Shown here one piece after another: positions 2,126-52,346 of a stretch of 64,000 nt of DNA. Positions within the stretch are counted from its first letter, which is position 1. The number at the start of each line of letters is the position of its first letter. This DNA is from Microvirga puerhi (GTDB taxonomy: Bacteria > Pseudomonadota > Alphaproteobacteria > Rhizobiales > Beijerinckiaceae): contig NZ_JAIRBM010000025.1 in NCBI RefSeq assembly GCF_020089865.1, positions 1 to 64,000 of the forward strand, in the 5' to 3' direction. Made by a program: the position numbers and the translations under genes. The notes beneath the pieces are model-generated. The model worked only from the letters and a program-made list of their open reading frames with translations. It was not told where the DNA came from and did no database searches.

Positions 2126-3442
2126 GTGAGCGAAAGTGTGCGTGCCTATGGAGGCGCTACGACCTTGCGCGACAGCGCAGCGCCGAGCCGACTGAAAACG
2201 ATATTCGGCGGCTCGATCGGCCATTTCATCGAATGGTATGAGTGGTCCATATATGGACTTCTGGCGGGCATCTTCGCAAGCCAGATGTTTCCGGCCAGCG
2301 ACGCGCTGGTCTCGCTGATCGCCAGCTTTTCAGTATTCGCCATTGGCTTTGCCGCCCGTCCGATCGGCGCTTTGGTGCTCTCGCCCATGGCCGACAAATA
2401 CGGTCGACGCACGATGCTCTCTGCGACAATCATCATGGCAGGGCTTGGCAGTCTCATCATTGCCCTGTGCCCAACCTATGGGCAGATAGGCATCCTGGCC
2501 CCCGTCATCATAGTTCTGGCGCGGCTGCTTCAGGGTTTCTCGGCAGGCGGTGAATTTCAGATTGCCGTCACTTTCCTGAACGAACATGCCTCGGACCGTA
2601 ATCGTGCGCTCAATGCATCGCCGCAAATGGTGTCCATCGGCCTCTCAGTGCTGATCGCAACGGCAGTTGCAGGCCTGACGACTCGCTTCATTCCGACAGA
2701 TGCTCTCGCCTCATGGGGATGGCGCGTTCCCTTCCTCATCGGAGCGCTGCTGTCACTCTACGGCTTGTACATGCGCCGCGGCCTTACGGAGACACCGGCC
2801 TTCGAGAAAGACAGACACGCCCAGAAACTCAGTCTCGGAGGCATCGTCGCCTCGCTAGCCAAGTATCCGAAGGAAGCGTTCATCGTCTTCGTCGTGCAGA
2901 TGAACGGCGTGCAGTATTATCTCTGGCTGATTTTCCTGCCGACTTATGCAAACCTTGTCGGCGGCCTTGATCGATCCGCCGGGTTCGCCGGCAATATCGC
3001 GGCAACCGCCGCCTATTGCATCGGGGTTCCGGTATTTGCCTACCTATCGGATCGCATCGGCCGCAAGCCGTTCCTGATCGGCTCGGCAGCATGCTTCCTG
3101 ATCTTCACATATCCGCTTCTCTCGATGCTGGTCGGAAGCCCAAGTTTCGGAACATTTCTGTTCGTTGCCGTGGTCGGTGCGTTGTTCATCGCACTCAACA
3201 ACTCCGTCATCGGAACGGTCTTCTCCGAGCTTTTCCCAACCAAGGTTCGCACGTCCGGGATCGGCATTCCCTACGCCGTCTGCGCGGCCATTTTCGGAGG
3301 CACGGCTCCCCTGCTGGCAACGTGGCTCCATGGACTTGGCGGTCCTTTATACATCTCGATCTATGTGGGTGTTATCTGTGCGATCACGCTTGCAACTCAC
3401 TTCTTCTTGACGCCGGAGACACGGGGTCGGCCGCTCGATTGA
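2126..3442 (+). CDS. MFS transporter, metabolite:H+ symporter (MHS) type
   Basis: A 438-residue membrane protein with about 12 predicted transmembrane segments. 'GHFIEWYEWSIYGLLA' near residue 31 and 'MADKYGRR' near 88 are hallmarks of the MHS branch of the major facilitator superfamily (ProP, KgtP, ShiA), which imports organic acids, betaines or other small polar metabolites with protons. A second loop motif, 'LSDRIGRK', near residue 310 begins the C-terminal half. The start is GTG at 2126, with AGAGGGA about 8 bases upstream. It lies between the TetR gene and two amide-hydrolysing enzymes, so it probably imports their acylated substrate or the osmolyte/amine released from it. The substrate is not visible from sequence. 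Confidence 0.88.
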   Translation: MSESVRAYGGATTLRDSAAPSRLKTIFGGSIGHFIEWYEWSIYGLLAGIFASQMFPASDALVSLIASFSVFAIGFAARPIGALVLSPMADKYGRRTMLSATIIMAGLGSLIIALCPTYGQIGILAPVIIVLARLLQGFSAGGEFQIAVTFLNEHASDRNRALNASPQMVSIGLSVLIATAVAGLTTRFIPTDALASWGWRVPFLIGALLSLYGLYMRRGLTETPAFEKDRHAQKLSLGGIVASLAKYPKEAFIVFVVQMNGVQYYLWLIFLPTYANLVGGLDRSAGFAGNIAATAAYCIGVPVFAYLSDRIGRKPFLIGSAACFLIFTYPLLSMLVGSPSFGTFLFVAVVGALFIALNNSVIGTVFSELFPTKVRTSGIGIPYAVCAAIFGGTAPLLATWLHGLGGPLYISIYVGVICAITLATHFFLTPETRGRPLD

Positions 3443-41187: not shown

Positions 41188-42432
41188 ATGCCACCTATGA
41201 CCACTACTGTTACCGACCGCTTCCTTCGCTATGTTGTCATCGACACCCAGTCGAACGCAGCATCTTCTACCCAGCCTTCGACCGAGAAACAGAAAAATCT
41301 AGGGCGTCTATTGGTTGAAGAACTACTCGCAATTGGAGTTTCCGATGCGCACCTCGACGAGTATGGTTATGTCTACGGAACTATTCCGTCAAATACATCT
41401 AAGAGCAACGTCCCTGTCATTTGCTTCTGTTCTCATATGGATACGGCGCCAGATTTCTCTGGCACCAGTGTCAGGCCGCAGATCGTCAGCAAGTACCGGG
41501 GCGGCGACATCCAACTGCCGGGCGGCTCTCGTCAAGTCATTCGCGTTTCCGAGCATCCCGTATTGGGCGACCTAATTGGTAACGACATCATCACTTCCGA
41601 TGGCACGACGCTATTGGGTGCGGACGACAAAGCCGGCATTGCCGAAATCATGTCTGCCGCCGAGGTCTTGATTAACAACCCCGATATCAAACATGGCACG
41701 ATCCGTATTCTCTTCACTACTGACGAAGAAATCGGCCGGGGTGTCGACAAGGTCGACCTCAAGAAGCTTGGTGCCGACGTCGGTTACACAATGGATGGCG
41801 AAACCGCCGGAACCGTCGAGGATGAAACCTTCTCTGCTGATGCGGCGGAGATCACTATCGAAGGCGTGGCGATTCATCCGGGCTTTGCCTACGGCAAGAT
41901 GGAAAATGCCATCAAAATCGCCAGTTCCATCGTTGACCGTCTGCCGAAGGATATGGCGCCTGAGACGACGAAGGGTCGACAAGGCTTTATCCATCCAATT
42001 GCTATTTCCGGCATAATGGAAAAGGCGAGCATCAGCTTCATCATCCGCGACTTCACGGAGGAAGGTCTCGGGAGCCAAGAGACACTGCTTCAGAACATTA
42101 CTAAGGAGGTCATCGCAAGATATCCCGGTTCCAACTACACCTTCACGGTCAGGGAGCAGTATCGCAATATGAAGGTCGTGCTCGACCGGCACCCGGAGAT
42201 TGTCGATTATGCCTGCGAGGCGATCCGTCGCGCCGGCATGACGCCTGTGCGTGGCAGCATTCGCGGTGGAACGGATGGCTCACGCCTCTCCTTTATGGGG
42301 CTGCCCTGCGCCAATATCTTTGCCGGTGGCCACGCCTTCCACTCTCCGCTGGAGTTTATCAGCAGTCAGGATATGGAAAAAGCAGTAAGAACGATTGTCG
42401 AACTCGCTAAGCTCTGGGAGGAACGTGCATAA
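41188..42432 (+). CDS. pepT: Peptidase T (tripeptide aminopeptidase)
   Basis: A 414-residue M20B di-zinc peptidase of the usual PepT length. The motifs are 'VICFCSHMDTAPDFSG' (metal H and catalytic D), 'LLGADDKAGIAEIM' (bridging D), 'FTTDEEIGRGVDK' (base and metal ligand E-E), 'TMDGETAGTVEDETFSA' and the closing 'FAGGHAFHSPLEFI' (last histidine ligand). PepT removes the N-terminal residue from tripeptides in the cytoplasm. The gene runs convergent to dppDF of the peptide importer with a 24-base gap, and it fits the peptide-degrading theme of the region. An ATG at 41197 is an alternative start; neither start has a clear ribosome site. Confidence 0.93.
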   Translation: MPPMTTTVTDRFLRYVVIDTQSNAASSTQPSTEKQKNLGRLLVEELLAIGVSDAHLDEYGYVYGTIPSNTSKSNVPVICFCSHMDTAPDFSGTSVRPQIVSKYRGGDIQLPGGSRQVIRVSEHPVLGDLIGNDIITSDGTTLLGADDKAGIAEIMSAAEVLINNPDIKHGTIRILFTTDEEIGRGVDKVDLKKLGADVGYTMDGETAGTVEDETFSADAAEITIEGVAIHPGFAYGKMENAIKIASSIVDRLPKDMAPETTKGRQGFIHPIAISGIMEKASISFIIRDFTEEGLGSQETLLQNITKEVIARYPGSNYTFTVREQYRNMKVVLDRHPEIVDYACEAIRRAGMTPVRGSIRGGTDGSRLSFMGLPCANIFAGGHAFHSPLEFISSQDMEKAVRTIVELAKLWEERA

Positions 42433-42456: not shown

Positions 42457-43410
42457 TCATGCGGGGCTCGCTTCACGCACGAAATGCGTCGAAGTTACTT
42501 CTCGCATGGGATGATGAATAGGGACAAAATTCAGGGGCCGAACGGCACTTGGAATTTCGTCAACTATCGGTTTACGACCTATAGGCCGGCGCGATGGATC
42601 GGCGACCGGCACGGTAGCGAGAAGTTTTCGTGTATAGGAATGCTGCGGATTCGAAAAAACCGACCGTCGATCTCCGATTTCCACGATCTCACCCAAGTAC
42701 ATTACCGCTACTCGATGAGCGATCCGTTCCACAACAGCCATATCATGGCTGATGAACAGGAGTGCGATCCTCATCTCTTGCTGAAGATCCATTAGAAGAT
42801 TTATGACTTGTGCCTGGATCGTCACATCAAGCGAGGCGACTGCCTCATCTGCAATAATTAGCCGCGGCTTCAGAGCCAATGAGCGGGCGATGCAGATCCG
42901 TTGACGTTGCCCGCCGGAGAAGGCGTGAGGGTAACGCTCGAGATGCTCAGGTGCAAGTTCCACCTTGGCCAGCAACTCGGCGGCTCGAGACCGAAGTACT
43001 CTGGACGAGCCCAAGCGATGAACCCGCATTGGGTCTATCAGGGCTTGAGCAATGGTCATACGCGGATTTAGGGATGAAAATGGATCTTGGAAAACCATCT
43101 GAGCTTCACGGCGGAAGCTCGCCATAGCTTTACGAGACGCGCCTATCATTTCTACGCCATCGAAGCGTACTGAGCCAGATTGCGGCTTGTCCAGCTGCAT
43201 GATGCTGCGCGCGACTGTAGACTTTCCGCACCCGGACTCACCCACAAGCGCCAAGGTTTCACCGGGAAAGATATCAAAGGAGACCTTTTCTACGGCATGC
43301 ACGCGACCGGTCGGTCGGCCCAAGACACCAGCCCTAAGATCAAACCGTGTCACAAGATCGCGGACCTCGACAAGCGGTTTGGTACTTGCATCAGTAGGAG
43401 TGGGTATCAT
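42457..43410 (-). CDS. Peptide ABC transporter ATPase (DppF type)
   Basis: A 317-residue ABC ATPase with Walker A GESGCGKS, signature '[17 protein letters not shown]', Walker B '[13 protein letters not shown]' and the oligopeptide-family tail '[19 protein letters not shown]'. It overlaps dppD by 4 bases (ATGA), and the two are expected to form the heterodimeric motor for the permeases encoded at 47639-49545 on the other side of the LysR gene. Confidence 0.92.
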
Positions 43411-44306
43411 CCTATCTCCTTAACCGGCGAGCGCGCCGGCTCATAGACTACAAGGGGAAATTTTTCGGGAGCGTCCCTATCAGCCATACTTCCGAGACGG
43501 GGCACTGCAGAGATCAGCGCCCTCGTGTAGGCATGCTTAGGATTCGAGAAGATTTCATGAACTGAATTCGTCTCGACGATCTCGCCTTTCAGCATGACGC
43601 AGACCCGATCGGCAATTTCAGCGACGACGCCCATATCGTGAGTGATAAACAGTACGGACATGCCGATCTCAGTTTGCAATGCACGCACAAGGTCCAATAT
43701 CTGAGCCTGGATTGTCACGTCGAGCGCCGTCGTTGGCTCGTCGAGAATCATCAGCGACGGGCGGCATGCGAGAGCAATGGCGATCATGACCCGTTGGCGC
43801 ATTCCTCCCGATAACTGGTGAGGATATTGATCCAAGCGCCGGATCGCATCCGGGACCCGAACGAGCTTCAGCACATTTAGAGCAATCGCGCGCGCTTCGC
43901 TTTTGGTCTTATTTTGGTGATGAGTAACTGCCTCAGCAATCTGATCACCGACCGTAAAGACGGGGTTCAAGCTCGACATTGGATCCTGAAAGACAATCGA
44001 TATTTCGGATCCCCGGAGTTTCTCGACGTGCTTTTCTGGGAGCTTAACTAAGTCGATCACTTGGCCGTTCTTCAGTCGCATCATAATTCGCCCGGCCGTA
44101 ATTCGCGCACCGTCGTGCTCCGTAAGTCGCATAACCGTCATTGCGGTAACGGATTTTCCGGAACCCGACTCGCCTACGAGAGCGAGAGTTTCTCCTCGGG
44201 CTATATTGAAGGATACTCCACGAACTGCTCTTAGAGGCTTTTGAGCCTGATTTGCGAAACTGACCTCAAGGTCTTCGACAGCCAGGATCACATCATCAGG
44301 CAGCAC
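43407..44306 (-). CDS. Peptide ABC transporter ATPase (DppD type)
   Basis: A 299-residue ABC ATPase. The start is GTG at 44306-44304, directly preceded by AAGGAG at good spacing; the frame continues to an ATG at 44396 but those 30 residues are cysteine-rich and unlike the family. Motifs: '[17 protein letters not shown]', '[17 protein letters not shown]', '[13 protein letters not shown]' and '[17 protein letters not shown]'. About 215 bases upstream lies a LysR-box palindrome (44520-44534), identical to one near the binding-protein operon, which suggests joint control of the separated transporter halves. Confidence 0.92.
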
Positions 44307-44519
44307 TGAGTCTCTCCTTCGATCGCAGGCACAAGCCTGCACATGGTTACCCATGGCGGAACTTACATCGAACGCAATCAGGCAAGATGCTGTCAATAGC
44401 CTCTGTGAGAGCTCGGGCTGTATATATGCTCAAGTAAAAGCCAGCTAAATGATCAAACAGCGATCAATTGATGAATGATTGCACAGAAACGGCAGATATT
44501 CCCTTCAGGAAACTACATT

Positions 44520-44534
44520 ATGCATTTTTTGCAT
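44520..44534. promoter_or_regulatory. LysR-box palindrome upstream of dppDF
   Basis: ATGCATTTTTTGCAT is a perfect palindrome apart from its T-rich centre (ATGCA and TGCAT arms, 5-base spacer). It contains T-N11-A, the core geometry of LysR-family binding sites. It lies between the LysR gene stop (44580) and the dppD start (44306). The identical 15-mer recurs at 45532-45546. Confidence 0.6.
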
Positions 44535-44579
44535 CCATGCTTCACTTTTCACATATTCACAGCGATTGGATGCGGATAA

Positions 44580-45521
44580 TCAGCGAGGAATGGAAAGATC
44601 TCTCCCAGGCCGCCTTTCCGCATTATGGAGAAGATGCTTCCAAAGCTGTTCTCCAGCCCGGCTCAGAGGTCCCGCGCGCCGAAAGATACGAATTTCCATA
44701 GCGAGGGACATTTGCTGCCCCCCGATTTGCACGAGTTCGCCGTCTAGAATGCCCTTGCGAGCGCAGCTCTGAGGCAGCCAGGCGACCCCGTGGCCTGCCA
44801 TCACCATATGTTTCAGACTTTCTGCCAGCGACGACTGATAGACGGTGCTCAGATTCAAAGGCTGTCGCCAACGCGAACGGATTAACGATATGATTTTGCC
44901 TAAATAGCCGTCATTCCAGGAGTACGCGAGGAACGGGATCTCCTCACCATCGGACCGATCAATATCGTAGAGCGGCTTACCCGGACTATCCACCTTCGAG
45001 ACAAGGATCAGCCGATCGGTACCGAGCAGCAATGACTCGAACGGGCCAGTTTTCAATACTGGAGGGCCGTCTGGGTGATCATAGGTGATGGCAAAGTCGC
45101 ACCTATTTGAGGAAAGATGCTCGATGCACTCCATGAAGTCGGCGGCGTGCATGCTGCTACGCGTAGCTAAACTCGCCATCTGCGGCGAACTCATCCATGT
45201 CGGAAAGAAATAGATCGATAGGGTATGGAGCGCAGCAAATGTTACAAGCTGAGAGCTGGCACCCGCTGCGTTGCGACAATCCGTGCGCAGTCGGTACATC
45301 TCACGCACCTGCTCCTGGCACCGTGGGAGGAAGACGTTTCCTGCATCCGTCAGATGAACCGGGTAAGTGCTCCGGTCTATGAGGTCGGCACCGATCCAGG
45401 CTTCCAAGGACTTGATGCGCCGACTGAAGGCAGGTTGGGAAATACTGCGCGCTAGTGCGGCGGTGGAAAAGTTACGGGTTGCGACAAGCTCCAGAAAGTC
45501 TTCGAACCAAGCGAGTTCCAT
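44580..45521 (-). CDS. LysR family transcriptional regulator
   Basis: A 313-residue regulator from the ATG at 45521 (an ATG four codons earlier, at 45533, lies inside the operator palindrome and is less likely; GGGGCAG lies before the chosen start). The N-terminal winged helix reads 'LAWFEDFLELVATRNFSTAALARSISQPAFSRRIKSLEAWIGADLIDRST', followed by a ligand-binding domain with 'GHGVAWLPQSCARKGILDGELVQIG'. The gene is placed between the dppDF genes and the divergent binding-protein operon, and identical LysR-box palindromes flank it, one overlapping its own start region. It probably activates both transporter halves in response to an imported peptide or its product and represses itself. Confidence 0.92.
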   Translation of the reverse strand: MELAWFEDFLELVATRNFSTAALARSISQPAFSRRIKSLEAWIGADLIDRSTYPVHLTDAGNVFLPRCQEQVREMYRLRTDCRNAAGASSQLVTFAALHTLSIYFFPTWMSSPQMASLATRSSMHAADFMECIEHLSSNRCDFAITYDHPDGPPVLKTGPFESLLLGTDRLILVSKVDSPGKPLYDIDRSDGEEIPFLAYSWNDGYLGKIISLIRSRWRQPLNLSTVYQSSLAESLKHMVMAGHGVAWLPQSCARKGILDGELVQIGGQQMSLAMEIRIFRRAGPLSRAGEQLWKHLLHNAERRPGRDLSIPR

Positions 45522-45531
45522 AGACTGCCCC

Positions 45532-45546
45532 ATGCATTTTTTGCAT
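45532..45546. promoter_or_regulatory. LysR-box palindrome in the divergent lysR/binding-protein promoter region
   Basis: A second exact copy of ATGCATTTTTTGCAT, extended here by GCCC/GGGC-like flanks (GCCCC on the left, GGGC on the right). It sits immediately upstream of the LysR start codon and 100 bases before the binding-protein start at 45647, the usual position of an activator/autorepressor site of LysR regulators. Confidence 0.65.
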
Positions 45547-45646
45547 GGGCAATCCTATCTGCACATTGGACAGCGACACAAGTGTGCCCGTAGCCTCATC
45601 TCCAAAATGAGAAGATTGCACGACTCCAGCCAGCAGGGGATATTTG

Positions 45647-47572
45647 ATGAAGCGAACTTTGACTATCGTCGCAAGCCTAATACTTGGCGCCGCCGCTTCC
45701 TCGGCAATCGCCGAAACCAAGAATCCAGGGACATTCGTCTTCCTTTGGGCAGACGATGTCCAGTCTTTCGACCCTGCTTATATCGCGAACACCCCCAGCT
45801 CTTACGGGGTACTAAACGTATATAGCAGGCTGCTAAACTATAAAGGATCTGAGATTTCGGATTTCGTTCCGGCCATCTCAACTGAAGTGCCATCCTTAGA
45901 AAATGGCCTTATCAAGCAAGGGCCGGACGGCTCAGTCAGCTATACCTTTCCAATTCGCAAAGGCGTGCATACGCACAAGGTCGGCTTGAAAGGTGCCGGC
46001 GGTAAGATTTCCTGGGAATACTATGACGGCCTGTCTGATGCGCAAAAATCGTCCATAGAGCCGGGATACGGTGAAATCACACCAGACGATGTGCGTTATA
46101 CCTTCCTTCGAGCCATCCTGATGGGACAATCATGGATGTCCAACGCCATCACGGAAGTCGTAACCGCCGGAAAGTACACAGATATCGCCAAGTGGGTAGA
46201 AGCCGAGGGCGGCGGCGCGAAAATCAAGGAAGCCAAGCCAGAAATTCTTCGGAAGGTTTATGATCAGCTTGCTTCACAGATTACCGTCGAGGGTGACAAA
46301 GTAACCTTAAAGCTCCCGAAATCCTTCCCTGCCACTCTTGGCGTGATTGCATTGCCGTTCGGCGCTTCGATCGTTGACAGGGAATGGGTTGCATCCGTTG
46401 GCGGCTGGGACGGCTCCGGCGATACTTGGATCAATTACTATCGTCCAGAACTGAGCGCAGATCCGCTATTCGCACAAGAAAATGGCAGCGGACCGTTCAT
46501 GCTGGAAGACTGGAATCGAACCGAGCGACGCATCACACTGAAGCGATTCAATAGCTACTTCATGGGCCCAGCATCCCTGGAACGCGTTGTGATGCGCACC
46601 GTTCCTGAATGGACCACGCGTCGACTTCAATTACTCTCGGGAGATGCAGACTTCGTCACAACCCCGGTGGAATTCCTTGACGAGCTGAGCAAGACCGACG
46701 GGATCAAGGTCGTTGACGGACTTCCTAAGGTCTTCGGGCGCGGCCTGTTCTTCGCCTGGCCCATCGACGATGTCGATAACCCTGCCATCGGAAGCGGAAA
46801 GCTCGATGGCGCGGGTATTCCACCCGATTTCTTCGCAGATATCGACGTTCGAAAGGGCTTCAATTACGCCCAGAATTACGATGTTCTGCTGAAGCAGGTT
46901 CTGCTCGGCAAGACCGTGCAGTCGCGTGGCCCAACGGTGCGCGGGATCATGGGCTACCGACCGGACTCGCCGATCTATTCATACAATCCGGCGAAGGCAG
47001 CTGAACACTTCAAGAAAGCCTTCGGTGGAAAGCTATGGGAAACCGGCTTTACTCTTACGGCCTATGTACAAGAAGGCACGCCACAGGGCACCGCCGCACT
47101 GTCCGCTTTGCAGCAAGGCCTGCAGCGTATTAACCCGAAGTTCAAACTGAAGATCCAATCGTTGCCGTGGGCCTCGATTTCAGACAAATTGAACAACCGG
47201 GCAAAGCCGGCATCTCCTCTGACGTATATGGGCTGGGGACCTGACTATTCCGATCCAGGTGGACCGCTAGGTGCTGCGTCCTACTATTTATCTCCGACAG
47301 GACTTGTCGGGGGAATGGTCGGACAAGGCTACCGCGACTTGATGGAGGAGAAATTCAAGCCGCTGCTTGACGAGGCTTGGGCCTCTAACGATCCAGCTGT
47401 ACGCGAGCCAATCTATGCCAAGCTCCAGGAGATGTCGTACGAGTATGCCACAACACAGTTTCTCTGGGAGGACTTCGGCTACATCGTGACCCGCAGCAAC
47501 ATCGACGGTTACGTGAACAACATGATCCTGTACGGAGCTTGGGATTTCTACACGATCAAGAAGGCGAACTGA
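45647..47572 (+). CDS. Peptide ABC transporter substrate-binding protein (family 5, long form)
   Basis: A 641-residue periplasmic protein from ATG 45647 (AGGGGA 6 bases upstream) with a signal peptide (about 1-23, 'SLILGAAASSAIAE'). 'TFVFLWADDVQSFDPAYIANTPSSYGVLNVYSRLL' and 'NGSGPFMLEDWNRTERRITLKRFNSYF' identify family 5. It is about 100 residues longer than DppA, with an insertion around residues 95-150 ('SVSYTFPIRKGVHTHKVGLKGAGGKISWEYYDG'), so the ligand may be bulky or unusual. It leads a six-gene operon with two permeases and three enzymes and is probably activated by LysR from 45532-45546. Confidence 0.92.
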   Translation: MKRTLTIVASLILGAAASSAIAETKNPGTFVFLWADDVQSFDPAYIANTPSSYGVLNVYSRLLNYKGSEISDFVPAISTEVPSLENGLIKQGPDGSVSYTFPIRKGVHTHKVGLKGAGGKISWEYYDGLSDAQKSSIEPGYGEITPDDVRYTFLRAILMGQSWMSNAITEVVTAGKYTDIAKWVEAEGGGAKIKEAKPEILRKVYDQLASQITVEGDKVTLKLPKSFPATLGVIALPFGASIVDREWVASVGGWDGSGDTWINYYRPELSADPLFAQENGSGPFMLEDWNRTERRITLKRFNSYFMGPASLERVVMRTVPEWTTRRLQLLSGDADFVTTPVEFLDELSKTDGIKVVDGLPKVFGRGLFFAWPIDDVDNPAIGSGKLDGAGIPPDFFADIDVRKGFNYAQNYDVLLKQVLLGKTVQSRGPTVRGIMGYRPDSPIYSYNPAKAAEHFKKAFGGKLWETGFTLTAYVQEGTPQGTAALSALQQGLQRINPKFKLKIQSLPWASISDKLNNRAKPASPLTYMGWGPDYSDPGGPLGAASYYLSPTGLVGGMVGQGYRDLMEEKFKPLLDEAWASNDPAVREPIYAKLQEMSYEYATTQFLWEDFGYIVTRSNIDGYVNNMILYGAWDFYTIKKAN

Positions 47573-47638
47573 TCTTGGTATGTAGCCGGGCAGCTAGCCT
47601 GCCCGGCCGTCCTGCTCTCGTATCGAACGGAACTCCGT

Positions 47639-48676
47639 GTGCTGAACTATGCCTTTCGGCGTCTGCTGATGCTGCCTGTTGTCATGTTTGCTCTATCTCT
47701 GATGATATTTGCGTTGCAGATGTCTCTGACGCCGACCCAACGCCTGGCTGCCTATGCTCCCTCTCCCGATTTTCTCAAAGGCGGTCAGGAGAGCATTCGT
47801 ATGCTCATCGAGCAATACGGCTTGAACGACCCGTTCTACATTCAGTATGGCCGGTGGATTGGAAATATCCTTACCGGAAATCTGGGCTGGTCAGAAACTG
47901 CGCGGCAGCCAGTGGGCACAGCGCTCGCTTCATTACTGCCAGCAACGATAGAGCTCGTCTTCCTAGCATTCTTTCCTGGACTCCTTCTAGCAATCTATCT
48001 CGGCTCTCGCGCCGGCATCTATCTCAACCGCTGGCCCGATCATCTTATCCGCGTGTTCACCATTCTGGGATGGTCCTTTCCCGTTTATGTCTTCGGCTTA
48101 CTCATGCTGCTGGTGTTTTATTCCGCCCTTGACTGGTTTCCGCCAGGGCGTCTCAGTCAGTGGGCCCAAGCAGTTGTCGCGTCGCCCAGCTTCGTTCGCT
48201 ATACAGGAGCGAACACCGTCGATGCGTTGCTGAATGGCAATCTTTCAGTTTTTCTGGACGCACTCCGCCATCTCGTAGCGCCTGTCGTCACACTTATTTA
48301 CGTCAATCTTGCCAATATGACGCGCGTCATGCGTACCTCGATGCTCGAGACGCTCAGGCAGGATTATGTGCGGACAGCACGAGCCAAAGGCATGCCGCGC
48401 CGCGTCGTCGAATTACATCATGCACGGCGCAACGCACTGCTTCCTGTAGCGACGATCGCGGGCATGGAGCTAGCCTACATGATGGGTGGCGTCGTCATTA
48501 CCGAAACGATCTTCGACTATTCGGGCCTGGGTCAGTTTGCAGCCAAGTCTGCTGCGAATCTGGACTTCCCAGCGATCTTGGGCTTCGGACTCTACTTCGC
48601 CCTGGTCCTTGTCGTCCTTAATCTCCTGGTCGACCTCATCTACCCGCTTCTCGATCCCAGGGTGAAGACAAAGTGA
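47639..48676 (+). CDS. Peptide ABC transporter permease (DppB type)
   Basis: A 345-residue membrane protein with a GTG start at 47639. It has the DppB-type opening 'AFRRLLMLPVVMFALSLMIFALQMSL', a longer periplasmic loop than usual, and the ATPase-contact region 'LRQDYVRTARAKGMPRRVVELHHARRNALLPVAT'. It overlaps dppC by 4 bases. Confidence 0.92.
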   Translation: MLNYAFRRLLMLPVVMFALSLMIFALQMSLTPTQRLAAYAPSPDFLKGGQESIRMLIEQYGLNDPFYIQYGRWIGNILTGNLGWSETARQPVGTALASLLPATIELVFLAFFPGLLLAIYLGSRAGIYLNRWPDHLIRVFTILGWSFPVYVFGLLMLLVFYSALDWFPPGRLSQWAQAVVASPSFVRYTGANTVDALLNGNLSVFLDALRHLVAPVVTLIYVNLANMTRVMRTSMLETLRQDYVRTARAKGMPRRVVELHHARRNALLPVATIAGMELAYMMGGVVITETIFDYSGLGQFAAKSAANLDFPAILGFGLYFALVLVVLNLLVDLIYPLLDPRVKTK

Positions 48677-49545
48677 AAGTCCTCCGCTACCTCGCTGGTA
48701 ACCCAATGTCGCTTCTTGGGGTCGCGATCCTTCTGGCGTTCGTATTGATTGCTGTCTTCGCTCCGGTTCTTGCACCGCCGCAAGAATTTCAGATGACACC
48801 CTACGACACGCCGCGGGCCGGCTTTCTTGCTACACCGCAACCTCCATCGGCTGACGCAGTCTTCGGCACGACCGAGGGCCAATACGACATTTATTATGCT
48901 GTCATCTGGGGAACTCGTACAGCCTTCAAGATCGGCTTAGGCGTTGTCGCAATCTCGGTTCTCGTCGGGACAATCGTCGGCGCCACTGCTGCATATTATG
49001 GCGGAGCGGTCGATGAAATCCTGATGCGCGCCGTCGACGCCTTCATGGCGGTGCCTTTTCTGATCGCCGCAATGGTCCTCACGGCCTTGCTTGGAAAGGG
49101 AATTGTCCCCGTCACAATAGCCTTGGCGACATTCGGTTGGATGGGATATGCGCGGATCATTCGCAGTGAGATTCTGCGGATCCGCGAGATGGATTACGTC
49201 CACGCAGCCAGAACCTACGGAGCGAGCGATCTTCGTCTCATTGCCCTACACATCATCCCGAATGCCTTCTTCCCAGTGCTGGTCCTTGCGACGATGGCGA
49301 CAGGATCGATGGTCCTTTCCGCCTCCGCGCTCAGCTTTCTCGGAGTCGGGACTGAAGAAGGTTATGCGGATTGGGGACAATTTATTGCCTATTCGCGAAA
49401 CTGGATCATCGGACAACCAGGGAACCCGTTCCAATACTGGTATACCCTCGCATTTCCGGGAGCTGCAATCTTTCTATTTGTTCTGTCGTGGAACCTCGTA
49501 GGCGACACACTGCGAGATATTCTCGACCCCCGTCATACCCGTTGA
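48673..49545 (+). CDS. Peptide ABC transporter permease (DppC type)
   Basis: A 290-residue membrane protein with a GTG start overlapping the DppB stop (GTGA). 'LLAFVLIAVFAPVLAPP' begins the first helix; 'FGTTEGQYDIYYAVIWGTRTAFKIGL' and 'REMDYVHAARTYGASDLRLIALHIIPNAFFPV' are DppC features. It forms the channel with DppB and uses the DppD/DppF motor encoded at 42457-44306. Confidence 0.92.
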   Translation: MKVLRYLAGNPMSLLGVAILLAFVLIAVFAPVLAPPQEFQMTPYDTPRAGFLATPQPPSADAVFGTTEGQYDIYYAVIWGTRTAFKIGLGVVAISVLVGTIVGATAAYYGGAVDEILMRAVDAFMAVPFLIAAMVLTALLGKGIVPVTIALATFGWMGYARIIRSEILRIREMDYVHAARTYGASDLRLIALHIIPNAFFPVLVLATMATGSMVLSASALSFLGVGTEEGYADWGQFIAYSRNWIIGQPGNPFQYWYTLAFPGAAIFLFVLSWNLVGDTLRDILDPRHTR

Positions 49546-49560
49546 CAAAGGAGATGGTCG

Positions 49561-51237
49561 TTGACTGCGCTCACTTCTGCCGCCATCGAGCAGTTTGAAG
49601 ATTTGATCCGCCATGAGGTGGAAGACAAGGAGATTCCCTCGATCTCCTACGCTCTCGTCGATCGTGATCGCCTCTTGGCCCAGGGCCACGTCCAGCGTCA
49701 CGACCTTAGGTTTGATATGCGGGACGATACCTGCTTTCGGATCGGCTCAATTACCAAGACATTCACTGCTTTGGCGATCATGCAACTGGTCGAGCAAGGG
49801 CTTGTTGATCTCGACGTCGATGTCTCCGAATATCTACCGGGCTTTCAGCCCCTAAACCCTTTCAAGGGCCGCGAAAGCGGCCCCTATGGGACCCAGATTA
49901 GTCTCCGCAAACTGATGAGCCATACCGCTGGCGTCGTCAGAGAACCTAAAAGCGGTCACTATCTGGATGCAAATCGCCCCCCTCTCTCCGAAACGGTAGC
50001 GGAACTTGCTACATCGACGCTCAAGCAGGATCCGAGCGCTGGCGTCATGCACTATTCGAACGCAGGCATTGCTGTGGTTGGAATGGTGATCGAAAAACTT
50101 ACGAAAAAAAGCTATTCGGAATACATTACCGAGAGCATTCTAAATCCACTTGGAATGCACAACACCTCGTCCGGAATGGCGCCAGGTATCCGTGAGCGGC
50201 TGGCTCCAGCTAATATGTGGACATTAGAGGGTGATAGCCCGGCGCCAGTTTTCAGTCTCGGCGGATCACCAGCCGGAAATATTTTTTCAACGACGGGCGA
50301 CATGGCAAACTACGCGCAATGTCTTCTTCGCGGCGGATTTGCGCCGGGCGGTCGTTCCATCGTATCGCCCGGATCATTGCGGCAGATGTGGACCCCAATT
50401 GGTAAGCGCCCCGCAGGTCACGACAAGGCTCTAAGCGGCTATGGTCTGTGCTTCGGTATTGGAGATATCGACGGCTGGACTTCAGTGGGCCATGGCGGTG
50501 CCGTCTATGGTTATGCCTCCCAGATGATGCTTCTGCCGACGGCCGGAATTGGTGTTCTCATCTTTGCGACTCTCGATTTCGCGAACCAAATCGCTTCGCG
50601 TCTCGGAGCAGATGGGCTGCGAATCGTTCTCGCTGAACGCGGTATGGGGCCGCGTCTCCACCGGTTACAGAGTTCACCACCGATTTCTGAAGAACAGCTG
50701 GCGGTATTGCCCGGACATTACCGGCACGAGGCGGCCAGCGAAGTGGTCGAGATCAAGAGCAAGGGAGGAAAGCTCTATTTGATGGGCGAAGGCGTTCCGC
50801 TTCAAATCAAGCCGGTTTCCGGCAAGGATTTTGTCATAGATGGTCGTATCTACGGTCGTGGTGCAGACTATCCGCACATGAATCTGTCGTTTCCAAAACC
50901 CGGTACGCTCGCATGGAAAGGCGCGAATTGGTCGCGGATCGACACACTTCCGCCTGAGAAGGTTCCGCCCGAGATCGCGCCCTATCTGGGCGAATACGGC
51001 CCGGACTTTAACATCAGTTATCTCTATTACCGGCATGGCGAGCTCAGATGCCTGATCGAATATTTTTGTACGCATGTATGCGAGCCAGTCGACGCGGGTC
51101 GATACCGCATGCATGGCCTTCTCTACGAAGAAGAAATCCTTGAGCTCGATGCAGTTGACGATCAAGGCCAGCGTGGCATTCGTGTCGGTCCGATGTTCCT
51201 AGTACGCCGCCATGCTCAGACGGAGGGCGCGCATTGA
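49561..51237 (+). CDS. Serine hydrolase, class C beta-lactamase/D-aminopeptidase-like, with C-terminal extension
   Basis: A 558-residue protein with a TTG start (AAGGAG at 49548-49553). The catalytic domain has S63-I-T-K66 in 'FRIGSITKTFTALAIMQL', 'MHYSNAGIAVVGMVIEKL' (YxN motif) and 'SVGHGGAVYGYASQMMLLP' (HGG third box). Residues about 375-558 form an extra, mainly beta region, as in D-aminopeptidase (DAP) and some peptide esterases. No leader is visible, so it probably acts in the cytoplasm. It sits between the peptide permeases and an M55 D-aminopeptidase gene, favouring a role in cleaving D-residue-containing or otherwise unusual peptides rather than resistance to beta-lactams. Its 3' end overlaps the next gene by 4 bases. 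Confidence 0.85.
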   Translation: MTALTSAAIEQFEDLIRHEVEDKEIPSISYALVDRDRLLAQGHVQRHDLRFDMRDDTCFRIGSITKTFTALAIMQLVEQGLVDLDVDVSEYLPGFQPLNPFKGRESGPYGTQISLRKLMSHTAGVVREPKSGHYLDANRPPLSETVAELATSTLKQDPSAGVMHYSNAGIAVVGMVIEKLTKKSYSEYITESILNPLGMHNTSSGMAPGIRERLAPANMWTLEGDSPAPVFSLGGSPAGNIFSTTGDMANYAQCLLRGGFAPGGRSIVSPGSLRQMWTPIGKRPAGHDKALSGYGLCFGIGDIDGWTSVGHGGAVYGYASQMMLLPTAGIGVLIFATLDFANQIASRLGADGLRIVLAERGMGPRLHRLQSSPPISEEQLAVLPGHYRHEAASEVVEIKSKGGKLYLMGEGVPLQIKPVSGKDFVIDGRIYGRGADYPHMNLSFPKPGTLAWKGANWSRIDTLPPEKVPPEIAPYLGEYGPDFNISYLYYRHGELRCLIEYFCTHVCEPVDAGRYRMHGLLYEEEILELDAVDDQGQRGIRVGPMFLVRRHAQTEGAH

Positions 51238-52346
51238 GCAATGCTCAAAGTGCCGATGGGCAATTGAGGATGGAATCTCCTCTAGGCCCTCGTATGCGGA
51301 TTGGCGGGCGCGAGGTCGACTACTTTTGTGGCACCAGTTATTACTGCTTGCATAGCCACCCGGATGTCATTGAAGCCGCTTGTGTAGCAACGCGTCAGTT
51401 CGGCATGGGTCCTGGTACGCTCGCACAGATGCAAGTCTACAACGATCTCCAAGATCAGCTACGCACGTGGTTCAATGCTGAACATGTCGTCACCTTAATA
51501 TCGGGCTACTCAAGCCCGATGGCGCTTCTTCAAGGTTTACGCGACGCATTCGATATTGTCTTCGTTGATGCGGCTACCCATTACAGTGCTCGCGACGCTC
51601 TGAGGACGTTGGTGAAGCCGATCCACAGTTTTCGTCATCTCGACCCTGGGTGTCTGGCCGATGCATTGGCCCGCAATGTCGCGCCAGAACAACGCCCCGT
51701 CATTGTGACGGACGGCGTATTCCCCTCTTCCGGTGCACTTGCTCCATTGCACGAGTATCGTCGTGCCATGGATCGTTTTGAAGGGGCGCTGCTGGTCATA
51801 GACGATTCCCACGGCGTTGGTACATTGGGACCCAGCGGGCGAGGTTCGCTCCAGCACGCCGGGCTTGAGAGCGACGGAAACTTCTTCGCTGGAACATTGA
51901 GTAAGGCTTTTGGGGCGTCGGGTGGTATTATTCCGGGCAGCGGCGAACTTGCAGAGAAGATCGCAGCCAATGCGATGATTATGCGTGGCGCTTCACCGCT
52001 TACTCCTGGAGCGGCAGCGGCAGCCGCTGCGGCCATGCATATCCTTCAATCGAACCCGGAGATGAAAGACAACCTGGCTCGTAATGTCAAACAATTGCGG
52101 AGCGGATTGCGCAGTTTAGGATTTGATGTACCAGAAACACCGGTCCCTATCATCAGTGTTTGGGGAGGACCTGATCTAGAGCATCTACGCCTTAAGCTTG
52201 ACGCTAGGGATATTATCGTCAGGGTTGTGAAGCCTTCGGGATATTCCGACGCGCCTGACGTCCCAACGATGCGTCTCGCAGTCTTCTCCGAGCATACTCC
52301 CGAACAGATCGATCGGCTCCTGTCGTCGATCGCTGAGCTTATCTGA
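51234..52346 (+). CDS. Alpha-oxoamine-synthase-like PLP enzyme (AONS/KBL/SPT group)
   Basis: A 370-residue fold-type I PLP enzyme with a TTG start overlapping the hydrolase stop (TTGA). The AONS-type active site is visible: 'VIDDSHGVGTLGPSGRG' (D190-D191 and H193 contact the pyridoxal ring), the Schiff-base lysine K224 in 'FFAGTLSKAFGASGG' and 'DAATHYSARDAL' around H117, where AONS has 'NHASIIDG'. The group condenses acyl-CoA with an amino acid (biotin, sphingolipid and haem synthesis) or runs the reverse cleavage in threonine breakdown. It lies in a peptide-uptake operon without biotin or lipid genes, so a catabolic or specialised role is likely. It is slightly shorter than typical members (about 390-400). 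Confidence 0.82.
   Translation: MSNAQSADGQLRMESPLGPRMRIGGREVDYFCGTSYYCLHSHPDVIEAACVATRQFGMGPGTLAQMQVYNDLQDQLRTWFNAEHVVTLISGYSSPMALLQGLRDAFDIVFVDAATHYSARDALRTLVKPIHSFRHLDPGCLADALARNVAPEQRPVIVTDGVFPSSGALAPLHEYRRAMDRFEGALLVIDDSHGVGTLGPSGRGSLQHAGLESDGNFFAGTLSKAFGASGGIIPGSGELAEKIAANAMIMRGASPLTPGAAAAAAAAMHILQSNPEMKDNLARNVKQLRSGLRSLGFDVPETPVPIISVWGGPDLEHLRLKLDARDIIVRVVKPSGYSDAPDVPTMRLAVFSEHTPEQIDRLLSSIAELI

Follow-up and report, generated by a model that had tools for sequence, protein, structure and literature searches.

Genes of the locus

The window, i.e. the whole 64-kb stretch of DNA analysed here, carries a complete Dpp/Opp-type importer complement, with a peptide-binding protein (SBP_bac_5), two permeases (both BPD_transp_1) and two ATPases (both ABC_tran and oligo_HPY). 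The regulator gene lysR (44580-45521, minus strand; HTH_1 and LysR_substrate domains) and the genes of a DppD-type ATPase (43407-44306, minus strand) and a DppF-type ATPase (42457-43410, minus strand) are read leftwards. On the plus strand, a rightward operon begins with the binding-protein gene (45647-47572) and continues with a DppB-type permease (47639-48676) and a DppC-type permease (48673-49545), both identified by Pfam/NCBIfam matches, a serine hydrolase of the beta-lactamase family (49561-51237; weakly matched by the NCBIfam models of AmpH and D-aminopeptidase) and a BioF-like PLP enzyme (51234-52346; Pfam/NCBIfam matches). Known Dpp/Opp importers such as DppABCDF, Gsi and Ddp also comprise a binding protein, two permeases and two ATPases. 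The system found here differs from these in the arrangement of its genes as two divergent units flanking the regulator, in having the serine hydrolase and the BioF-like enzyme within the same operon, and in having transporter proteins that remain below the NCBIfam cut-off in all matches listed. A Peptidase T gene (tripeptide aminopeptidase; 41188-42432, plus strand; NCBIfam PepT 571 bits for a cut-off of 255) lies tail to tail with dppF; as no Peptidase T match occurred among the orthologous loci listed, it is regarded as a neighbour and not as a core part of the cluster.

Two start sites require comment. The likely start of lysR is the ATG at 45521; an Ensifer orthologue has its annotated start at the corresponding position, and a Nitratireductor one 150 nt further upstream. 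For dppD, the mechanically assigned start (TTG 44396) coincides with the first three bases of a conserved TTGACA, and the true start is probably the GTG at 44306, behind a GGAG; of 13 alignments with dppD orthologues, 11 start between residues 29 and 37 of the long ORF and the other two at residue 1.

The regulator has orthologues in Microvirga, Mesorhizobium and Nitratireductor, on plasmids of Ochrobactrum, Ensifer and Nitratireductor, and in further genomes. The set used below was defined by a LysR identity above 50%, which gave 25 loci including the window; removal of four with identical regions left 21 distinct loci, i.e. the window and 20 orthologues (LysR identity 57-100%), which are counted without regard to kinship. 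Eleven plasmid records had at least 57% identity, five of which were used. Wherever the flanks extend far enough, the gene order matches that of the window, lysR having the genes of the binding protein, the permeases and the serine hydrolase on one side and those of the two ATPases on the other. In Microvirga rosea, the proteins encoded at 42457-50523 are 84-97% identical, as far as its locus extends. Since no regulator orthologue above 42% identity occurs in 198 other sampled genomes of the same family, own genus included, the cluster is probably mobile and has probably been transferred horizontally.

Genes found beside the orthologues encode an M55 D-aminopeptidase, a protein annotated as alanine racemase but having a D-serine-dehydratase domain, a dipeptide epimerase and a D-serine ammonia-lyase of the PALP family (all by annotation and Pfam), as well as a D,D-dipeptide permease (by annotation). 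Together with the serine hydrolase of the window, these neighbours suggest a role in the uptake and degradation of peptides that contain D-residues or other unusual ones.

Two palindromic boxes flanking lysR

The 15-mer ATGCATTTTTTGCAT occurs at 44520-44534 (site 1, downstream of lysR and upstream of dppDF) and, on the same minus strand, at 45532-45546 (site 2, in the divergent region between lysR and the binding-protein operon). The first-pass annotation had described these two identical 15-mers as a symmetric LysR box unlikely to recur by chance, and exact matching in the window recovers both copies. They are the only exact copies in the whole genome (5,165,995 bp), so that the 15-mer is by no means common genome-wide, and within the window no other place matches with up to two mismatches. 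In 100 dinucleotide shuffles of the window, such matches occurred with a mean of 0.13, two matches never being obtained (0/100), and a chance repeat is thus very unlikely, as had been claimed; the genome as a whole contains three additional places with two mismatches. The T-N11-A core attributed to the sequence is present (bases 2 and 14). Its symmetry holds for the arms only (5+5, extending to 8+8 in copy 2 as CCCATGCA-N5-TGCATGGG) but not for the T-rich middle, which is asymmetric. Palindromes of the form ATGCA-N5-TGCAT number two in the genome, namely sites 1 and 2.

Copy 2 lies ca. 10 nt before the likely lysR ATG and touches the start of a longer ORF at 45533; with ATG 45521 as the likely start, it falls within the lysR leader. 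Comparison of both intergenic regions among relatives, which had been proposed as a check, revealed that the conserved feature at each site is a core, ATGC-N7-GCAT, whose middle seven bases vary among the 21 loci. This core is exact at site 2 in all 21 loci, where it starts 24-26 nt upstream of lysR, and at site 1 in 17, the other four having ATGC-N7-ACAT (one mismatch). Identity of the two 15-mers is not itself conserved: an identical pair is found in the window only (1/21), and the identical 15-mers were consequently rejected as a functional unit. Neither outcome named in the first-pass annotation as refuting was obtained, the 15-mer being rare in the genome and the core being conserved at both places.

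Each palindrome is accompanied by a half-site (both minus strand), which is ATGT at 44551-44554 for site 1, 20 bp off the palindrome on the lysR side and thus away from dppD, and AATGT at 45563-45567 for site 2, 20 bp off towards the binding-protein gene. Across the orthologues, ATGY is found exactly 20 bp from the palindrome, to its left in the lysR sense, in 18 of 21 loci at each site and never at the mirror position on the right (0/21), while any other offset of an ATG, to the left or right, is shared by at most 5/21 loci at site 1 and 10/21 at site 2. At site 2 the half-site reads AATG in 18/21 loci and lies on the target side. The three exceptions are the Nitratireductor-type loci, which lack the half-site at both sites. 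Sites 1 and 2 are therefore very probably two-part operators of the LysR kind, each combining a palindrome with a weaker half-site.

The possibility that the repeat is fortuitous, or that it forms the stem of a transcription terminator, could be entertained for an A+T-rich 15-mer with symmetric arms, yet it has practically no probability. Shuffle and genome counts speak against it, as does the retention of the boxes in 21 loci in spite of their variable middle seven bases; moreover, a lysR leader and, in relatives, the upstream regions of first genes are the wrong places for a terminator. Chance was also rejected by the ranking of palindromes beside distant relatives (see below). An RNA element was rejected as well, with no Rfam match at gathering score and no tRNA.

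The preferred reading is that both 15-mers are primary recognition boxes of the HypT-like LysR encoded between them, to which we assign a probability of roughly 85%. The assignment to the adjacent regulator, already made in the first-pass annotation, is strongly supported by the occurrence of boxes at both places in 21 loci, by the half-sites at 20 bp and by a clade-wide association described below. The looser ATGC-N7-GCAT is found at 106 places in the 5.17-Mb genome (ca. 1 per 49 kb) and at 77-121 places in each of eight other genomes, corresponding to ca. 0.5% per 260 bp. The full pattern AATG-N17-ATGC-N7-GCAT occurs once in the genome, at site 2, and a many-gene regulon marked by the full pattern was rejected on this count and on the two occurrences of ATGCA-N5-TGCAT.

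Proposed promoter geometry at the two sites

At site 2, the half-site (CCAATG) overlaps a conserved TGTCCAA that corresponds, on the other strand, to TTGGACA, the putative -35 of the binding-protein operon. The promoter proposed for this operon (45567-45596, plus strand) consists of TGGACA at 45567-45572 and TAGCCT at 45591-45596, with a spacing of 18 bp; it coincides with two blocks conserved in the alignments, CTGTCCAAT and CTA/GCTA. Site 2 lies 28 bp from the proposed -35, which would place its centre at about -65 of the predicted start of the operon. On the minus strand, a block TAGGAT (45552-45557), conserved but absent from the Nitratireductor group, is the likely -10 of lysR, and the predicted lysR start would then fall inside the site 2 palindrome. 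This geometry fits activation of the binding-protein/permease operon combined with autorepression of lysR.

Autorepression is a common trait of LysR regulators, and BenM/CatM recognise ATAC-N7-GTAT at sites ca. 20 bp apart. The general layout described for the family in PMC11602165, which also describes AccR, has a recognition site (RBS) near -65 and an activation site (ABS) near -35. The arrangement at site 2 would correspond to this common layout of an autorepressing regulator that activates a divergent operon: a T-N11-A palindrome lies between regulator and target, a weaker second element follows ca. 20 bp towards the target promoter, and the primary box covers the predicted start of the regulator gene itself. 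The window departs from such divergent promoters in its arms (ATGC/GCAT) and in having a second complete operator beyond the regulator gene, with a polarity reversed relative to the downstream operon. The operator pair is ordinary in kind for LysR regulators, apart from two points, namely the conserved but backward site 1 and the clade-wide box.

Taken together, the HypT-like LysR would recognise ATGC-N7-GCAT, a T-N11-A box, at both sites. At site 2, where the palindrome would cover the lysR start and the half-site the -35 of the rightward operon, a bound tetramer would repress lysR and, in the presence of an inducer (probably an imported peptide or amino acid), would activate the binding-protein/permease/serine-hydrolase operon. 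A second tetramer would occupy site 1, downstream of lysR, with remote action or joint action with site 2 being probable there. For the window, a probable DNA box and a probable target operon of the regulator can thus be named.

The situation at site 1 is less straightforward. The proposed dppDF promoter (44367-44396, minus strand) consists of TTGACA at 44396-44391 and TTCGAT at 44372-44367, 18 bp apart. TTGACA precedes dppD in 21/21 loci, at 66-134 bp from the centre of site 1, to be compared with box-to--35 distances of 28 bp at site 2 and of 22 bp for the E. coli box (see below). The half-site of site 1 lies on the lysR side in 18/21 loci and on the dppD side in none. Since the half-site faces away from dppDF and the -35 is this distant, site 1 probably acts remotely or coupled with site 2. 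The two boxes had initially been thought to explain how ATPases and permeases on opposite strands are expressed together; the activator geometry and polarity of site 2 agree with this proposal, but the reversed polarity and variable spacing of site 1 do not. That the two halves of the importer are expressed together is plausible, yet with site 1 as the exception in polarity this explanation is not established. A site that is conserved and nevertheless faces the wrong way for simple co-activation raises a clear experimental question.

That site 1 is a standard activator site, switching on dppDF along with the permease operon, would account for its being kept in position and sequence. The TTGACA distances, which take 10 distinct values, are moreover weakly helical, with a Rayleigh p of ca. 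0.04 at a period of 10.5, 0.15 at 10.0 and 0.004 at 11.0 (kinship ignored). We nevertheless consider this role unlikely: in 18/21 loci the half-site faces away from dppD and in none does it lie towards that gene, the distance to the -35 far exceeds those of site 2 and of E. coli, and TTGACA, as a full consensus -35, may work without an activator.

More tentatively than for site 2, site 1 may be an auxiliary operator, either looping with site 2 over lysR (ca. 1 kb) and thereby tuning lysR and the rightward operon, or blocking read-through from lysR into dppDF. Sites 1 and 2 are alike in orientation and two-part structure, and binding of HypT to two separated motifs at fhuA, with formation of a DNA loop, is described in a review (PMC7464077). 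Against looping, the site-to-site distances (997-1041 bp) display no helical phasing (Rayleigh p 0.68-0.90), although little phasing is to be expected over 1 kb; a phased pair was on this basis rejected. An antisense promoter conserved on the lysR-facing side of site 1 was also considered and rejected, no column left of the half-site reaching 70% in 13 aligned rows.

The box beside HypT and its relatives

The nearest named family of the regulator is HypT. The NCBIfam HypT model (NF007488) is its best match, with 149 bits for a cut-off of 301 that is not reached; with the same model, one enteric HypT scores 592 bits and the HypT of locus L092 336 bits. By structure, the closest solved entries are 5ydw, a Salmonella HypT entry according to PMC8063818, 7dwo/7dwn ("Predicted DNA-binding transcriptional regulator") and 5y9s (VV2_1132). 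HypT (YjiE) of E. coli and Salmonella is thus close to the window LysR as its nearest named family and as one of its nearest structures, and resembles it in the DNA-reading helix, where QPAFSRRI is common to the window and E. coli proteins, and in the box, found in E. coli upstream of the operon that contains hypT. They differ in that the window protein is only 30% identical to E. coli HypT and has Leu/Ile in place of Met206 and Met230.

HypT is described as a hypochlorite sensor acting via Met123, Met206 and Met230 (PMC7464077, PMC8063818). In the window LysR and its 20 orthologues, positions 206 and 230 are Leu or Ile and never Met; position 123 of the window protein is not Met in the MAFFT alignment but faces Met in the BLASTP alignment. 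As Met is missing at 206 and 230, hypochlorite sensing by the three-methionine route is unlikely for the window LysR. All three residues are kept in 12 of the 12 enteric HypT proteins of the set. Among distant alphaproteobacterial relatives, Met206 occurs in 3/32 (29/32 being without it) and Met230 in 13/32, and Met206 is missing in 14 of 16 gammaproteobacterial relatives; the methionines are, however, not confined to enterics, since some alphaproteobacterial relatives have Met206 or Met230 and two loci (L076 and L077) carry both.

The box was further searched beside distant relatives, within 300 bp upstream of the regulator. The distant set derives from 33 matches, 30 of which had loci; the window's own regulator was removed and L040, L047 and L048 were added, giving 32 loci, several from one genome and one corresponding to the contig-45 paralogue of the genome under study (kinship ignored). 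Beside these regulators, 32-42% identical to the window LysR, ATGC-N7-GCAT ranks first of the 256 four-base palindromes possible with this gap, being found in 20/32 loci against a mean of 0.28. Among the 16 loci retrieved with E. coli HypT as query it is again the commonest, with 9/16 for a mean of 0.10. With gaps of 5, 6, 8 or 9 in place of 7, ATGC palindromes are counted 0 or 1 times. Within these 300 bp, the exact box was not found in 12/32 and 7/16 loci, nor does it occur in four 13-14-kb regions around HypT-like genes (L094-L097). Among 29 distant box places, ATG lies on the left at 20 bp in 12 and at 21 bp in 9. Ten neighbouring genes were tested for family membership: three encode binding proteins of two families, three MR/MLE-type enolases, two Lyase_1 proteins (NCBIfam aspartate ammonia-lyase) and one a class IV aminotransferase (NCBIfam D-amino-acid transaminase), one remaining without assignment. 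These counts yield a candidate DNA box for one clade of LysR regulators.

The E. coli K-12 genome carries ATGCGTTTTTTGCAT, which differs from ATGCATTTTTTGCAT in a single base, at NC_000913 4560796-4560810 (L075:9797-9811), 116-130 bp before yjiH, the first gene of yjiH-yjiG-iadA-hypT. A search of 295 enteric genomes gave matches in 81, and the best 30 places were taken as loci; three of these (L127-L129; ca. 50% identity, no iadA) were excluded, so that 27 loci and E. coli K-12 make up the 28 counted here, all with yjiH and iadA and without regard to kinship. In this sample, all loci that carry hypT downstream have the box before yjiH (13/13), and none of those that lack hypT does (0/15). For instance, one locus (L141) has neither hypT nor the box, its yjiH being 82.5% identical to that of E. 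coli. The half-site lies on the target side in 13/13 cases before yjiH.

In enteric relatives, the box also precedes other genes. Three loci carry a second box that lies across hypT from the first and precedes a racemase gene of the Asp/Glu or cysteate type (L142:1026-1040, L143:1030-1044 and L144:1069-1083), at 85 bp from that gene in L142 and 83 bp in L143. Their two-box layout resembles that of the window, but both half-sites face their targets. Two further loci (L092:9020-9034 and L093:9683-9697) have a box before a sodium:dicarboxylate symporter gene, beside a HypT of ca. 50% identity and a racemase gene; the stretch that separates hypT from the racemase gene has no exact box there. Before the racemase gene (3/3 loci) and before the symporter gene (2/2), the half-site faces its target.

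These counts bear on the possibility that a different regulator binds the boxes and that the LysR neighbour is incidental. Several regulator families use short palindromes, and the 23 kb around the paralogous regulator on contig 14 (L099, ~62 kb) contain no exact box. Such a coincidence is nonetheless quite improbable: the box is tied to one LysR clade across its own family, order and phylum, next to differing target genes, and in enterics it follows the presence of hypT (13/13 against 0/15) in loci that all retain yjiH and iadA.

ATGC-N7-GCAT, often with a half-site 20-21 bp off, may represent the ancestral operator of a whole HypT-like clade, whose members would control how peptides and acidic, iso- or D-amino acids are taken up and degraded. 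E. coli HypT would accordingly be a local regulator of yjiHG-iadA-hypT acting through the box at 4560796-4560810, and in some genera also of the Asp/cysteate-type racemase gene, three-methionine hypochlorite sensing being a late enteric addition. On balance, we lean slightly towards this scenario. As the window, its orthologues and most alpha- and gammaproteobacterial relatives are without Met206, the box probably predates the full hypochlorite sensor. Its occurrence beside distant relatives, E. coli HypT among them, suggests an earlier function of HypT in the use of unusual amino acids and peptides. A clade-wide box predicts a local, metabolic regulon for HypT. For E. coli, the prediction is specific, involving a conserved box before yjiHG-iadA-hypT whose spacing and orientation are correct and whose presence follows that of hypT. 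If it is true, E. coli HypT would serve the use of isoaspartyl peptides or related amino acids and not hypochlorite defence alone, iadA being the gene of isoaspartyl dipeptidase.

The upstream region of fhuA, a published HypT target in E. coli, has no exact box but only places with two mismatches. A hypT promoter fragment of 158 bp was used in PMC3792123. No open-access title linking HypT/YjiE regulation to iadA or yjiH occurred among the matches listed, and no open-access paper was found under the spelling ATGC-N7-GCAT together with LysR; the original HypT literature may describe the box.

Finally, the two paralogous regulators of the genome under study, on contigs 14 and 45, are both associated with dpp-type importers and beta-lactamase-family hydrolases. 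The HypT-like paralogue on contig 45 (~239.3 kb) is the last gene of its cluster. Two ATGC-N7-GCAT boxes, neither with ATGY at 20 bp, are found 23 bp apart at the cluster head (L130:3277-3291 and 3300-3314), where a binding-protein gene and a membrane-dipeptidase (M19) gene diverge.
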